This document shows positions 9,602 to 32,057 of a stretch of DNA of 33,817 nucleotides, piece after piece. The notes under the pieces are model-generated. The model was not told the DNA's origin and searched no databases. It saw only the letters and a program-made list of their open reading frames with translations. A program made the position numbers and the translations under genes. Source of the DNA: Phycisphaerales bacterium (GTDB lineage Bacteria > Planctomycetota > Phycisphaerae > Phycisphaerales > SM1A02); assembly GCA_020427695.1 (NCBI GenBank), contig JAGQOG010000521.1, positions 1 to 33,817 of the forward strand, written 5' to 3'. Each line of letters opens with the position of its first letter. The first letter of the stretch is position 1.

Positions 9602-10552
9602 TCAGGCGAACGCGCGTCGCAGGAGGTCCAAGCTCCGAGGCACACCTGTTTCCGCCGGGTCCTTCCCCTCGAACTCCAACGACACGTAGCCCTTGAAGCC
9701 CGCCTCGCGGAGGATGCGTGCGACCAACGGGTAGTCGATCTCGAGCGTGTACCACTCGCCGCCGCCGTAGTAGGTCTTGGCCTGCACCAGCACCGCTCGC
9801 GGCGCCATCTGCCGGATCTGCGGCTCCCAGTTCTCCAGGAAGTTGCCCGTGTCGAGGGTGACCTGGAGCCAAGGCGAGTTCACCGCCTCGACAATGCGCA
9901 TGACGCCGGCGGCGGTGCGTCCGAGCCCCCAGTGGTTCTCGAGTCCCATGCAGACGCCGCACTTCTCCGCATGGGGGATCAGCCGCTGGATCGAGTCGAT
10001 GCACCACTTGAAGCCCTCGTCCTCGGTGTGGCCGGGGAGGATCGGTTCCACGCCCTTGTTGGCCATCAGCTCGTCGAAGTCGGCGATCGTGCGCCAGCGC
10101 CCGGTGTTCAGGCGCAGCGTCGGAATGCCCAGCGCGTACGCCAGCTCGATGCAGCGGATCGTGTGGTCGATGTTGCGCTGCCGCTCGTCGGCGTCGGGCG
10201 TGACGAAGCCCTGGTGGATCGAGAATCCCATGAGGTCGAGGCCGTTGACGAACGCGCGGTGCTTGAGCTCCTGCAGGTAGGCGTTGTCCTCCGTGGGCAT
10301 CATCATGTGGAGAATCTCGACGCCATCGAAGCCCATCGCGCCGGCCTGGTCGATCACCGTCCGGAGATCCGGCGGATCTCCGCGGAAGTGCCAGAACGAG
10401 TAGGTGGACACGCCGATGCGCAACGGGCGCCGCGGCGAAGTCGGCGACGATGGCGCTCCGTGGTCGTCGGCATGAGCGGGCAGGGCGAGGAGGCCGGAGG
10501 CTCCGGCGGCCGTGGCGGCGTGGGCGAGGAATGTGCGGCGATCGAGGCTCAT
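9602..10552 (-). CDS. TAT-exported sugar phosphate isomerase/epimerase-like protein
   Basis: 316 aa. It begins MSLDRRTFLAHAATAAGASG, a twin-arginine signal peptide (DRRTFLA), with likely cleavage after ALPAHA, so it should act outside the cytoplasm. The rest is an AP-endonuclease-2-type TIM barrel: IGVSTYSFW, GFDGVEILHM, LGIPTLRLNTG, MGLENHWGLG, LQVTLDTGNF, LVQAKTYY and YVSLEFEG, with Glu, Asp, His and Glu positions that could bind a divalent metal. The substrate is unknown; such exported barrels are abundant in planctomycetes, where a role in sugar breakdown is supposed. GGGAG lies upstream of the ATG at 10552. It diverges from the next gene, also a TIM barrel. Confidence 0.88.
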   Translation of the reverse strand: MSLDRRTFLAHAATAAGASGLLALPAHADDHGAPSSPTSPRRPLRIGVSTYSFWHFRGDPPDLRTVIDQAGAMGFDGVEILHMMMPTEDNAYLQELKHRAFVNGLDLMGFSIHQGFVTPDADERQRNIDHTIRCIELAYALGIPTLRLNTGRWRTIADFDELMANKGVEPILPGHTEDEGFKWCIDSIQRLIPHAEKCGVCMGLENHWGLGRTAAGVMRIVEAVNSPWLQVTLDTGNFLENWEPQIRQMAPRAVLVQAKTYYGGGEWYTLEIDYPLVARILREAGFKGYVSLEFEGKDPAETGVPRSLDLLRRAFA

Positions 10553-27974: not shown

Positions 27975-28418
27975 TCATGGATCTCCGGTCGGGCGGAGCG
28001 TCCCCACGGGCGGGTCGTAGGTTCCGCCGCCAAGACCAGCGATGGCGGGAAGCGAGCTGCGGACGTACACCGTCCGATCGCCTTTGACCAGCACCGAGAA
28101 GAGGGGCTCGGCCGGTGGCTCGATCGCGGCATGGAGGTCCAGCTGGACCGCCGATCCGAGATCGGTGAGCCTGCCGGCGACGATCAATCCGTCGAGGAGC
28201 GTCGTGCTGCGATCGACAAACTCAAGCCGCGAGGAGGCCCGCCACGCGCCATCCTCCGATTCGACCGCTTCGAACACGAGCTGCCCTTCGGCGAGGGAAT
28301 CGACCGTCGAGTGCTCCGCCAGGCTCGTTGGCGACACCGAGACCGTCCACGACACGGCGAGTCGAAGGGGAGCGGCCACCTGGGGGGCATGCGGCCGGGT
28401 TTGGTTGACGACGGTCAT
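27975..28418 (-). CDS. hypothetical beta-rich protein
   Basis: 147 aa, not recognised. The sequence alternates short hydrophobic strands (LRLAVSWTVSVS, GQLVFEAVES, LLDGLIVAGRLTDLGSAVQLDLHAAI, LFSVLVKGDRTVYVRSSLP) and ends in a Gly/Pro-rich tail. There is no signal peptide. AAGGCAGG lies upstream of the ATG. It follows the GbsR-type regulator by 61 nt on the same strand and may be cotranscribed and under its control; that is inference. Confidence 0.6.
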   Translation of the reverse strand: MTVVNQTRPHAPQVAAPLRLAVSWTVSVSPTSLAEHSTVDSLAEGQLVFEAVESEDGAWRASSRLEFVDRSTTLLDGLIVAGRLTDLGSAVQLDLHAAIEPPAEPLFSVLVKGDRTVYVRSSLPAIAGLGGGTYDPPVGTLRPTGDP

Positions 28419-28479: not shown

Positions 28480-29046
28480 CTAGGACACCTTGGCTAAGAG
28501 CTTGGCGGCGGTCCGGAATCCGATGCCGCCCTGGGAGATGACGCGCTCGCTGAGGGAGTCGAGCGTCCGGACCAGCCCCAGCATCTCGTCCAACCGGCGG
28601 TGATGCGCCTCCAGGTCCGCCGACTGCGGGTCGATGCGGCGCTTGCCGCCGGCGGATGGCTGCTCGGTCATCGTTCGGCAGGCCCGCAAGGCGTCGAGCA
28701 AGGGATCGAACTCGCGCCGTTTCCGTTCGCGAACGATGGTGGCAAAGAGCTTCCAGACGTCCTGCTCGGCGCGGAAGTACTCCTTGCGATCGCCACGGTT
28801 GTGCACACGGCTGACGATTCCCCACTCGCACAGTGTGCGCAGCGTCATGGAGGCGTTGCCGCGGCTGATGCGGAGACGCGCCATCACGTCGTCGGTGTTC
28901 ATGGGCTCGCCGGAGATGTAGAGCAGGGCATGCACCTCGGCCATGGTGCGCGGAATGCCCCATGCCGAGCCCATTTCCCCCCACAGGCCGATGAACCGAT
29001 CCTGGGCCTCGGGGAGCCCGATCGGTGTCGATTCCTCGGTCGTCAT
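28480..29046 (-). CDS. GbsR/MarR-family transcriptional regulator
   Basis: 188 aa. The winged-helix domain has the GbsR layout: QDRFIGLWGEMGSAWGIPRTMAEVHALLYIS, then MNTDDVMARLRISRGNASMTLRTLCEWGIVSRVHNRGDRKEYF (helix-turn-helix and wing, about 52-92). The last 90 residues are helical and probably dimerise. GbsR-type proteins often repress osmoprotectant or envelope genes, but the ligand here is unknown. AAGGAGG lies 5 nt before the ATG. An AT-rich palindrome 70-90 nt upstream is a likely operator, so autoregulation is plausible. Confidence 0.88.
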   Translation of the reverse strand: MTTEESTPIGLPEAQDRFIGLWGEMGSAWGIPRTMAEVHALLYISGEPMNTDDVMARLRISRGNASMTLRTLCEWGIVSRVHNRGDRKEYFRAEQDVWKLFATIVRERKRREFDPLLDALRACRTMTEQPSAGGKRRIDPQSADLEAHHRRLDEMLGLVRTLDSLSERVISQGGIGFRTAAKLLAKVS

Positions 29047-29084
29047 GCATGCCTCCTTGCCGTTGGACCGCCTGCCGTTGTCGA

Positions 29085-29090
29085 ATCGTA
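29085..29090 (-). promoter_or_regulatory. -10-like box of GbsR-type gene
   Basis: TACGAT on the minus strand, about 39 nt before the ATG at 29046; the leader would contain the AAGGAGG SD. A second candidate, TATGTT, lies at the upstream edge of the palindrome (about 29142-29137). Confidence 0.4.
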
Positions 29091-29117: not shown

Positions 29118-29137
29118 TTTTCAGAAGATTCTGAAAA
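29118..29137. promoter_or_regulatory. palindromic operator candidate
   Basis: TTTTCAGAA-GA-TTCTGAAAA: 9-nt perfect arms around a 2-nt centre. It is strikingly AT-rich in this GC-rich window and lies upstream of the GbsR-type gene, in the position of an autoregulatory site. Confidence 0.75.
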
Positions 29138-29211: not shown

Positions 29212-29243
29212 AAGAAAAAGCTCCCCGGCCATCGCCGGGGAGC
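29212..29243 (-). terminator. intrinsic terminator of S8 protease gene
   Basis: 10-bp stem GCTCCCCGGC / GCCGGGGAGC with a 4-nt loop (29220-29243), followed on the minus strand by TTTTTCTTT. It begins about 38 nt past the protease stop. Confidence 0.92.
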
Positions 29244-29281: not shown

Positions 29282-31966
29282 TCAGCCGCCGAACGGATCG
29301 AACGTCGGATCCGGGGAAAGCAGGATCGTGATGTAGTCGTGGCGGGTGTTGTACTGCGGCACGGCACCGAGCCCGCAGGTCCACACCCGGACATAGATCA
29401 CGCCGTCCGTGCTGACGTGGGACTCGGGCTTGTTCACCAGATTCTGGAGATCGATCCCGGCTGGTCCGGTGAAGTCGATCGTGGGAAGCAGCGTCCACCG
29501 GTTCGAGTCCCAGTTGTAGACGTACTGCGCCACGAGGACGAAGTCCTGGGTGGTGTTGGAGATCGATTCCACCCCCAGCACCGAGACCTGGGCCGGTTCC
29601 AGCGTGGTGAACATCGTCACCTCGATGTCGGTGGTGTATCCGCCAACGAGGTAGGTGATCGGCGGGCCGTAGCCCTGACCCGTTCCGCCCGAGCCGAGTT
29701 GCCGCGCCTTGATGACGAGGAACTGGTTGTCCGGGGCCTTGATGCTGTTGAGGTTGCCGGACAACTGCGTGCCGGTGACGACCTTGTAGTCCACGGCCGG
29801 CGATGCGGAGAAGAAGTTGCCGGCGATCACGCCGATGCCGCCCTCGAACGCCTGCGGGAACCCGCCGATCAGGCGGGCGGGAGCGTCGGGGTTGAAGTCG
29901 CCGCCGCACTGGAAGGGCTCCTCGGAGCCCGGCAGGGCGCCCGCTGGAACCTCGCACTGCGGGAAGACGTTTCCGGAGATCACGTTGCGCAGCGACTCGG
30001 GTGTCAGCGAAGTGCCGTAGAACTGCTTGGCGAGTCCCTGGAGGCACGCCGCCAATCCGGAGATGATCGGGGCGGCCGACGACGTGCCGTTGAAGGTGCC
30101 GGTGTACGTTCGGGCGTGGTCGATCTCGGGCGGGTTGCTGCCCGGGATCGGCGGCGCGAACAGGTCGCCGCCACCGCACGTCGTGACGTCAATGCCCCAC
30201 GCCGACACGTGCACCAGGCTCGTCGGATCGCACGCCTGGCAGTGGTTCGAGAACCCGAGGCGGCAGTAGCGGCCCAGGCCGAGGGGCGGGGTTGCCGGTG
30301 CGCCCGGCCAGCAGGCGCCGACGATGATGGCCCCGCTGTCCTGACCGTTCGCCTGGCCGTTGTCGTCGAGGTTGAAGCAATCGTTGCCGGCCGAGATGCA
30401 CGACGTGATGCCGAGGTCGGAGCCGAGCCGGATCAGAATCCACGGTCCCTCCTGGCTGACGAGCGTTCCGCCGCCGCCCGGTCCGATCGAGTAGTTCAGC
30501 ACGTCGCCGGCGTCGAAGGTCTGCATCGCGGTGGCGATCGCGTTCAGGGTTCGTCCGCCTTCCTCCACCGACACGATGGGGAAGAAGTAGCCCTGGGCAT
30601 CGCGGGCGATGCCGGTGACGCCGAAGCCGTTGTCCGCGGCCACGATTTCTCCCAGCGTCGCGGTGCCGTGGTCGGGATTCAGGACACCGCCAGAGATCGT
30701 GATGATCGTCTGGTTCGGCTCCGGGATGACGTCTTCGAGGTCTTCGTGCCAGAGCGTGCCGCCCTCGGAGACCTTCGGTCCCGTGACGTACGCCGTGTGT
30801 TCGACGACGCCGACCTTGATCCCGAGGCCGCGGGCGCCGTTGGCCTCGCCGGCGCCGTACTGGTCGAGCAGGGTCTGACCCAGTTCCTCCAACTCGGCGA
30901 GAGAGAGTCCCTCGCCCGTGAAGCCGTAGGTGTCGAAGAACGCGTCGCCCTCCACAGAGGTCTCGGGCGTCGTGTACTTCTGGAGGCGGTTCTCCACCGT
31001 CGCGGAGGTCATCGAGAAGTCGGGCGACGGACCATCGCCGGGATTCAGGCAGTTCGCCTGGGCCAGGATGACGCAGGGATCGTCCCAGACAAGCTGACAG
31101 CACACCGGGGAGATGTCGCAAACGGCGTTGCAGCAGTCCTCCGTGGCGCAGCCAGGCGAGTTGTGGGCGTCGAAGCAGCCGCCCGCGACGGAGTTCGCCG
31201 CGCACCGGTCGCCGTCCATGCAGTAGAGATTCGCCAGATCGGTGCAGAGCTGGTCCCACTCGCCGAAGTCGTCGGTGCAGAAGGGATCGATCGAGCCCAC
31301 CAGCTCGCAGCAGTTCGCGTCACTGCAGTTCGGCGCTCCGGGGGGATTGTCCGGATCGAAGGTGTAGCAGTCCTGCGCCGCCTCGCCGCACGCGGGCGGC
31401 GTTCCGCCGAGGAGCATCGGTGCTGGCGCGGGTGCCGGCATCGGGGAGGGCGCAGGCAGCCGGTGCGTGATCATCTCCTCTTCGAAGTAGACGAACTCGA
31501 CCGATGGCAACTCGTTCAACTCGCGTGAAGCGTCCAACAGCGCCTCGAGCGGGCCCTGCACGAACATCAGGCCCGCGAGATCGGGTTGCGCCCGCTGGCT
31601 GTGGGCCACGGCCCGCTGCTGGAGTTGGGCGAGGGCCGAGGCTTCCTTGTTGATCGCCTGGCGAATCGTGAGGCCGTGCTCGGCGAGGATCTCGTCCACG
31701 CCGCTCATGTTCTCGCGACTCAGCGAGCTGACGTGCTTGGCGCCGGCTCGCGGTGCACGAGCGCGAACGCTGTCGTTGAACTTCACCACGAGATTGCCCG
31801 TCGCCACCACTCGGCCCGTCGCATCGACGGGGATCCGGAGGCTGGCCGTCGGCCGCTTCCGAAGGGGCGTGCGAGGCGTGATGTCGCCGGCATCGGCGCC
31901 GAATGCGGGGAACGTGGCTGCCGACGCGATCAGCAGTGACGTTCCGATGACCACCCGAATGAGCAT
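29282..31966 (-). CDS. secreted subtilisin-like (S8) serine protease with Cys-rich insert
   Basis: 894 aa. The N-terminus MLIRVVIGTSLLIASAATFPAFGA is a signal peptide; residues 40-165 look like an inhibitor-type prodomain. Residues 193-306 are a Cys-rich block with two related units (214-249 and 264-306). The S8 domain (about 380-660) has His433 in DHGTATLGEIVA, the oxyanion Asn528 in ISAGND and Ser629 in NGTSSAAPIISG. Where the catalytic Asp is expected (VGVVEHTAYV) there is Glu389. The C-terminal 250 residues are beta-rich. The ATG at 31966 has GGAG upstream; the frame extends to 32008 without signal-peptide character. A strong terminator follows. Confidence 0.88.
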   Translation of the reverse strand: MLIRVVIGTSLLIASAATFPAFGADAGDITPRTPLRKRPTASLRIPVDATGRVVATGNLVVKFNDSVRARAPRAGAKHVSSLSRENMSGVDEILAEHGLTIRQAINKEASALAQLQQRAVAHSQRAQPDLAGLMFVQGPLEALLDASRELNELPSVEFVYFEEEMITHRLPAPSPMPAPAPAPMLLGGTPPACGEAAQDCYTFDPDNPPGAPNCSDANCCELVGSIDPFCTDDFGEWDQLCTDLANLYCMDGDRCAANSVAGGCFDAHNSPGCATEDCCNAVCDISPVCCQLVWDDPCVILAQANCLNPGDGPSPDFSMTSATVENRLQKYTTPETSVEGDAFFDTYGFTGEGLSLAELEELGQTLLDQYGAGEANGARGLGIKVGVVEHTAYVTGPKVSEGGTLWHEDLEDVIPEPNQTIITISGGVLNPDHGTATLGEIVAADNGFGVTGIARDAQGYFFPIVSVEEGGRTLNAIATAMQTFDAGDVLNYSIGPGGGGTLVSQEGPWILIRLGSDLGITSCISAGNDCFNLDDNGQANGQDSGAIIVGACWPGAPATPPLGLGRYCRLGFSNHCQACDPTSLVHVSAWGIDVTTCGGGDLFAPPIPGSNPPEIDHARTYTGTFNGTSSAAPIISGLAACLQGLAKQFYGTSLTPESLRNVISGNVFPQCEVPAGALPGSEEPFQCGGDFNPDAPARLIGGFPQAFEGGIGVIAGNFFSASPAVDYKVVTGTQLSGNLNSIKAPDNQFLVIKARQLGSGGTGQGYGPPITYLVGGYTTDIEVTMFTTLEPAQVSVLGVESISNTTQDFVLVAQYVYNWDSNRWTLLPTIDFTGPAGIDLQNLVNKPESHVSTDGVIYVRVWTCGLGAVPQYNTRHDYITILLSPDPTFDPFGG

Positions 31967-32057
31967 GCTCGGAATCTCCGGTTGGAGGCCAAAGGGCGTG
32001 GGCGGCACCGCCGTTGCGACAAGGGTGCGGGCTTGGTGGAGTCCGCATCCGAGTCCT

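Follow-up and report, generated by a model that had tools for sequence, protein, structure and literature searches.

CydE of Alishewanella sp. WH16-1 is a GbsR-type repressor of cytochrome bd that lies next to the cydAB operon, acts on its own promoter and is tied to quinol-dependent respiration; its DNase I footprint protects TATTTCAGAAATTTCTGAAAGTTCA (PMC6096048). CioR of Chromobacterium violaceum is a GbsR-type repressor of cioRAB with an adjacent cytochrome bd operon (PMC11837568). The choline and osmoprotectant regulators GbsR, OpcR, OpuAR and CudC, members of the kind that gives the family its name, have adjacent glycine betaine genes and choline-type inducers (PMC6207618).

We analysed a 33,817-nucleotide stretch from a Phycisphaerales bacterium (contig JAGQOG010000521.1, positions 1 to 33,817; hereafter the window), in which a GbsR/MarR-type gene is preceded by an AT-rich palindrome. 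The features concerned are as follows:

29118–29137, no strand assigned: putative operator palindrome TTTTCAGAA-GA-TTCTGAAAA (conservation; CydE footprint; 34.1 bits to the orthologue matrix)
29085–29090, minus strand: predicted −10 hexamer TACGAT, 27 nt after the palindrome (spacing conserved in regulator promoters)
29053–29059, minus strand: ribosome-binding sequence AAGGAGG, 6 nt before the ATG (read from the sequence)
28480–29046, minus strand: gene for a 188-aa regulator of the GbsR/MarR type, with its ATG at 29046 (an orthologue in 42 of 61 related genomes; profile; fold)
27975–28418, minus strand: small ORF of 147 aa, uncharacterised, which follows the regulator gene (same-strand counterpart in most orthologue loci)
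29220–29243, minus strand: intrinsic terminator of the upstream subtilase gene (terminator scan of the window)
29282–32008, minus strand: subtilase gene (Pfam PF00082)

The letters at 29118–29137 read exactly TTTTCAGAAGATTCTGAAAA, so the 9-nt perfect arms and 2-nt centre described in a first-pass annotation of the window are as reported. That annotation had counted the site among the most AT-rich stretches of the window and placed it between the protease terminator and the regulator, and both statements are accurate: 15 of its 20 positions are A or T, no 20-base stretch of the window (68.6% GC) has 16 or more, and the palindrome lies between the subtilase terminator and the regulator's start codon, which follows its end by 71 nt. 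The further statement that −10 candidates occur on both sides stood for the regulator side, where TACGAT has a spacing conserved among orthologues, and was not supported for the other, where there is no divergent gene to serve. Because both flanking genes are on the minus strand, the palindrome serves one promoter, and the terminator upstream isolates the regulator as its own transcription unit. Perfect 9-nt inverted repeats with gaps of 0–4 occur seven times in the window, a frequency that speaks for a chance palindrome without function; against this, the repeat at 29118–29137 is the only one of the seven with at least seven A/T per arm, its like never arose in 60 local shuffles, and it is conserved before orthologues. 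Conservation already refutes chance, an explanation that we reject and to which we attach practically no probability.

The regulator scored above the cut-off of the Pfam model MarR_2 and shows the marks of its family: an alignment-based AlphaFold model (mean pLDDT 85) has a MarR-type winged helix and long C-terminal helices, and the best PDB match, both by profile (E 3.7e-22) and by fold, is MJ223 of Methanocaldococcus jannaschii (1ku9), its best solved relative. The MarR subfamily and overall fold are shared with the choline and osmoprotectant regulators (PMC6207618), but the protein falls far below the NCBIfam CudC equivalog model (59.9 bits, cut-off 218), and its identity as a regulator of that kind is not supported. 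Invariant residues cluster in the N-terminal and winged-helix part; none is a cysteine, which makes simple thiol sensing unlikely. The two-fold symmetry of the palindrome would fit a dimer of such a protein.

Unlike CydE and CioR, the window regulator is flanked by the subtilase gene and the small ORF, and no cytochrome bd operon was recognised beside it or its orthologues (PMC6096048; PMC11837568). For this reason we describe it as predicted to work like CydE and do not class it as CydE. The CydE footprint contains the same palindrome, as ATTTCAGAAATTTCTGAAAG (PMC6096048), and that footprint scores 34.7 bits with the planctomycete matrix; an operator of the CydE/CioR type, TTTCAGAA-n2-TTCTGAAA, is thus present in the regulator's own promoter. 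Plasmid-borne proteobacterial homologues, 36–40% identical to the regulator, carry TTTTCAGAAATTTCTGAAAT, ATTTCAGAAAATTCTGAAAT and ATTTCAGTAATTACTGAAAT next to cydDC or cydAB. For three other homologues, from unannotated records, the palindromes end in GACAGAAAT, and two have the form TTTCTGT-n4-ACAGAAA.

Orthologues of the regulator were taken from 61 related genomes, and the upstream stretches of the best 30 were scanned. TTTCA-n8-TGAAA was intact within 300 nt upstream in 29 of these 30 closest orthologues, with matrix scores of 20.5–36.4 bits; when these stretches were shuffled 1800 times, no score exceeded 7.0. The site was present in 72 of 80 named loci, most of which carry the label Phycisphaerales or Planctomycetota and some of which also belong to the set of 30; across the order, the strict motif occurred in 104 of 301 genomes and the reversed pattern in five. 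In a sister family (f2), 23 of 30 orthologues had an autoregulatory site above 10 bits, and seven had no good site. The first-pass annotation had proposed the palindrome as a strong operator candidate for autoregulation of the GbsR/MarR gene, a proposal staked on conservation before orthologues; these counts, together with the footprint of a GbsR-type homologue on the same sequence, support it. From conservation, promoter geometry and the footprinted homologue, we hold with high confidence that the palindrome is the putative operator of the adjacent regulator, which, by analogy with its relative, very probably binds it.

The genome to which the window belongs is a draft (82.6% complete), in which the palindrome with up to three mismatches occurs at one other place and the reversed control pattern nowhere. 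This site, TTTTCAGGAATATCTGAAAG (G000:C129:581-600, 27.5 bits), is the only other strong one; an MqnC-like gene, belonging to the futalosine route of menaquinone synthesis, has its predicted ATG 22 nt further on. A plain 3-mismatch search of this genome, of the kind that had been suggested as a way to obtain the regulon, gave 10 hits against 5 for the control and was near control level beyond two strong and two paralogue-type sites. The mqnE-like gene of this genome has no site, and nothing matching the motif was reported close to its dxs. The MqnC and MqnE assignments lie slightly below the NCBIfam cut-offs (404 vs 428 and 402 vs 435 bits).

Related genomes extend this picture unevenly. The closest relative (G026) has sites at the regulator, mqnC (29.4) and mqnE (24.4), and in another genome (G027) the regulator, the small ORF and an MqnC homologue are consecutive on one strand. 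Most of the genomes scanned in families f1 and f4 have no site at mqnC or mqnE and show the autoregulatory site only, and in the f1 genomes scanned dxs has no site upstream. We therefore do not claim a wide regulon for the whole order: in f1 the quinone link exists in a patchy form, and in f2 it is systematic. Three genomes (G025, G031 and G041) had no match to the MqnC family, and in two of them, G025 and G031, the regulator is present; the gene may be missing from the assembly, or quinone may be made by a different route. Motif matches in AT-rich genomes such as G102 lay within coding sequence and were put down to chance.

The CodY box of Firmicutes has a half similar to the arm TTTTCAGAA, a likeness that counts towards the palindrome belonging to a different transcription factor, with the GbsR gene as no more than its target. 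The part of that box which defines it is central, and this part is not conserved at these sites. Moreover, the site accompanies the regulator gene from genus to genus, is not seen at mqnC in the six genomes that have no regulator orthologue, and coincides with the footprint of a GbsR-type homologue, all of which leaves control by another factor very improbable.

We examined the quinone link in f2 using a matrix trained on regulator promoters only, applied to the upstream stretches of four genes in 31 genomes of 30 genera, with sites counted above 10 bits and with gene bodies or stretches about 690–1100 nt upstream as controls. Non-autoregulatory f2 sites had first been seen before dxs, MqnE and MqnC genes; sites were found at mqnE in 23 of 29, at mqnC in 24 of 29 and at dxs in 20 of 30, as compared to one in 236 control windows. 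In 16 f2 genomes TTTCA-n8-TGAAA occurred 67 times and its reversed pattern twice. Beyond mqnC, mqnE and dxs, sites in single or few cases each preceded genes for polyprenyl diphosphate synthase (L397, L398, L405), SdhA (L395, L403), SCO1 in a cytochrome oxidase cluster (L107), a small gene like the neighbour of that SCO1 gene (L396), a TIGR01777 oxidoreductase (L119, L132/L407) and, opposite a sigma-70 factor, an Fe/Mn superoxide dismutase (L399); some of the naming of oxidase and small genes in these clusters comes from reading the sequences. Since the motif was tested on genes outside its training set, we consider the predicted quinone and respiration regulon very likely in f2. Operator-like sites of 29.6 (L399) and 23.5 bits (L389) were also seen before sigma-70 family factors, one of them divergent from the Fe/Mn superoxide dismutase gene, which possibly connects the regulon with oxidative stress.

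The position of the site within promoters bears on how it acts. For 19 of 29 and 16 of 21 regulator promoters, the operator is followed at a distance of 26–29 nt by the start of the best −10. In the window TACGAT stands at exactly 27 nt, by which the operator would span about −59 to −40 and transcription would start near 29078. The palindrome, lying upstream of the conserved −10, would thus be outside the regulator transcript. As a perfect and intergenic inverted repeat it has the outline of an RNA hairpin, attenuator or second terminator, but its centre is only 2 nt and it is AT-rich; it is also located past the subtilase terminator, the one element (29220–29243) that the scan reports. The same motif also occurs at varied positions relative to the start in dxs and mqnC. 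We reject an RNA element on the terminator scan and the position upstream of the −10, and consider it exceedingly improbable.

At target genes the operator is placed differently. A TACACT-like −10 directly adjoins the operator in 12 of 20 f2 dxs promoters, so that the start site would be covered by it, and at the MqnC-like gene of the same genome as the window TACGAT lies 6 nt before the operator. These positions favour repression, and at the regulator's own promoter either sign would be possible. Activation from the operator, at least at that promoter, draws on its nearly fixed position directly upstream of the −35 region in regulator promoters and on the weak −35 in the window. We think it unlikely, given that the operator overlaps the start or −35 at dxs, the MqnC-like gene and part of the mqnE set, and that the characterised relatives CydE and CioR repress their own operons. 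We infer that the regulator is probably a repressor in the main.

Together, these observations suggest a CydE-like GbsR/MarR dimer that most likely binds TTTCA-n8-TGAAA at its own promoter and, when bound, would control transcription of its own gene and of the small ORF behind it. The same regulator would bind over the predicted start region of the MqnC-like gene and repress there. In f2 the regulon is predicted to extend to mqnC, mqnE and dxs, and in few cases to the further genes named above, and the regulator may in this way match menaquinone supply to respiratory state. Acting on its own promoter and tied to quinol-dependent respiration, it would resemble CydE (PMC6096048), and would differ from it in that its predicted targets are distant genes for the synthesis of menaquinone and isoprenoids. 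As a whole, this reading, of an autoregulated CydE-like regulator, probably a repressor, that would coordinate menaquinone synthesis with respiration, seems to us highly likely. Whether the protein might be a master regulator dedicated to the menaquinone pool of Phycisphaerales, jointly controlling mqnC/mqnE, dxs/polyprenyl synthase for isoprenoid supply, and the menaquinone-using succinate dehydrogenase and SCO1/cytochrome oxidase cluster, possibly sensing a quinone or precursor and with the conserved small ORF as partner, we judge to be evenly balanced.

The operator type is already known from CydE. In the open-licence literature we found no report of the futalosine menaquinone pathway under transcriptional control by such a regulator, nor of this kind of regulon in Phycisphaerales; as far as found there, neither the regulon nor its occurrence in this phylum has been described. 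The same site before menaquinone and isoprenoid-precursor genes suggests an undescribed control circuit of the respiratory chain, and suggests a broader role in quinone-based respiration for the CydE-like GbsR branch, in contrast to the osmoprotectant members. With its clear motif, and with a relative from another phylum already footprinted, the regulon is directly testable.

The small ORF at 27975–28418 is probably co-transcribed with the regulator. It matched no model in Pfam or NCBIfam; its counterparts, same-strand and 3′ of the regulator in most orthologue loci, evolve fast and are poorly conserved, and share a recurring C-terminal motif like YARSxLxxxxGLxGGxY.

The same genome has a second GbsR-type paralogue (L087, 44% identical), with different palindromes of its own on either side, TTTCTGTCATTACAGAAA and TTTCTGTTGTTTCAGAAT (G000:C489:9642-9659 and 10240-10257). 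It adjoins a small gene for a predicted membrane protein, and the same gene neighbours a homologue in another genome (L094 of G057). In nine proteins (the window regulator, P0001, residues 60–67; L087; L094; L488–L493) the recognition helix tracks operator type: ...NxSM goes with TTTCAG palindromes, and ...NVST or ...NVSN with TTTCTGT-like palindromes. In this small sample of nine, the correlation is possibly a specificity code.
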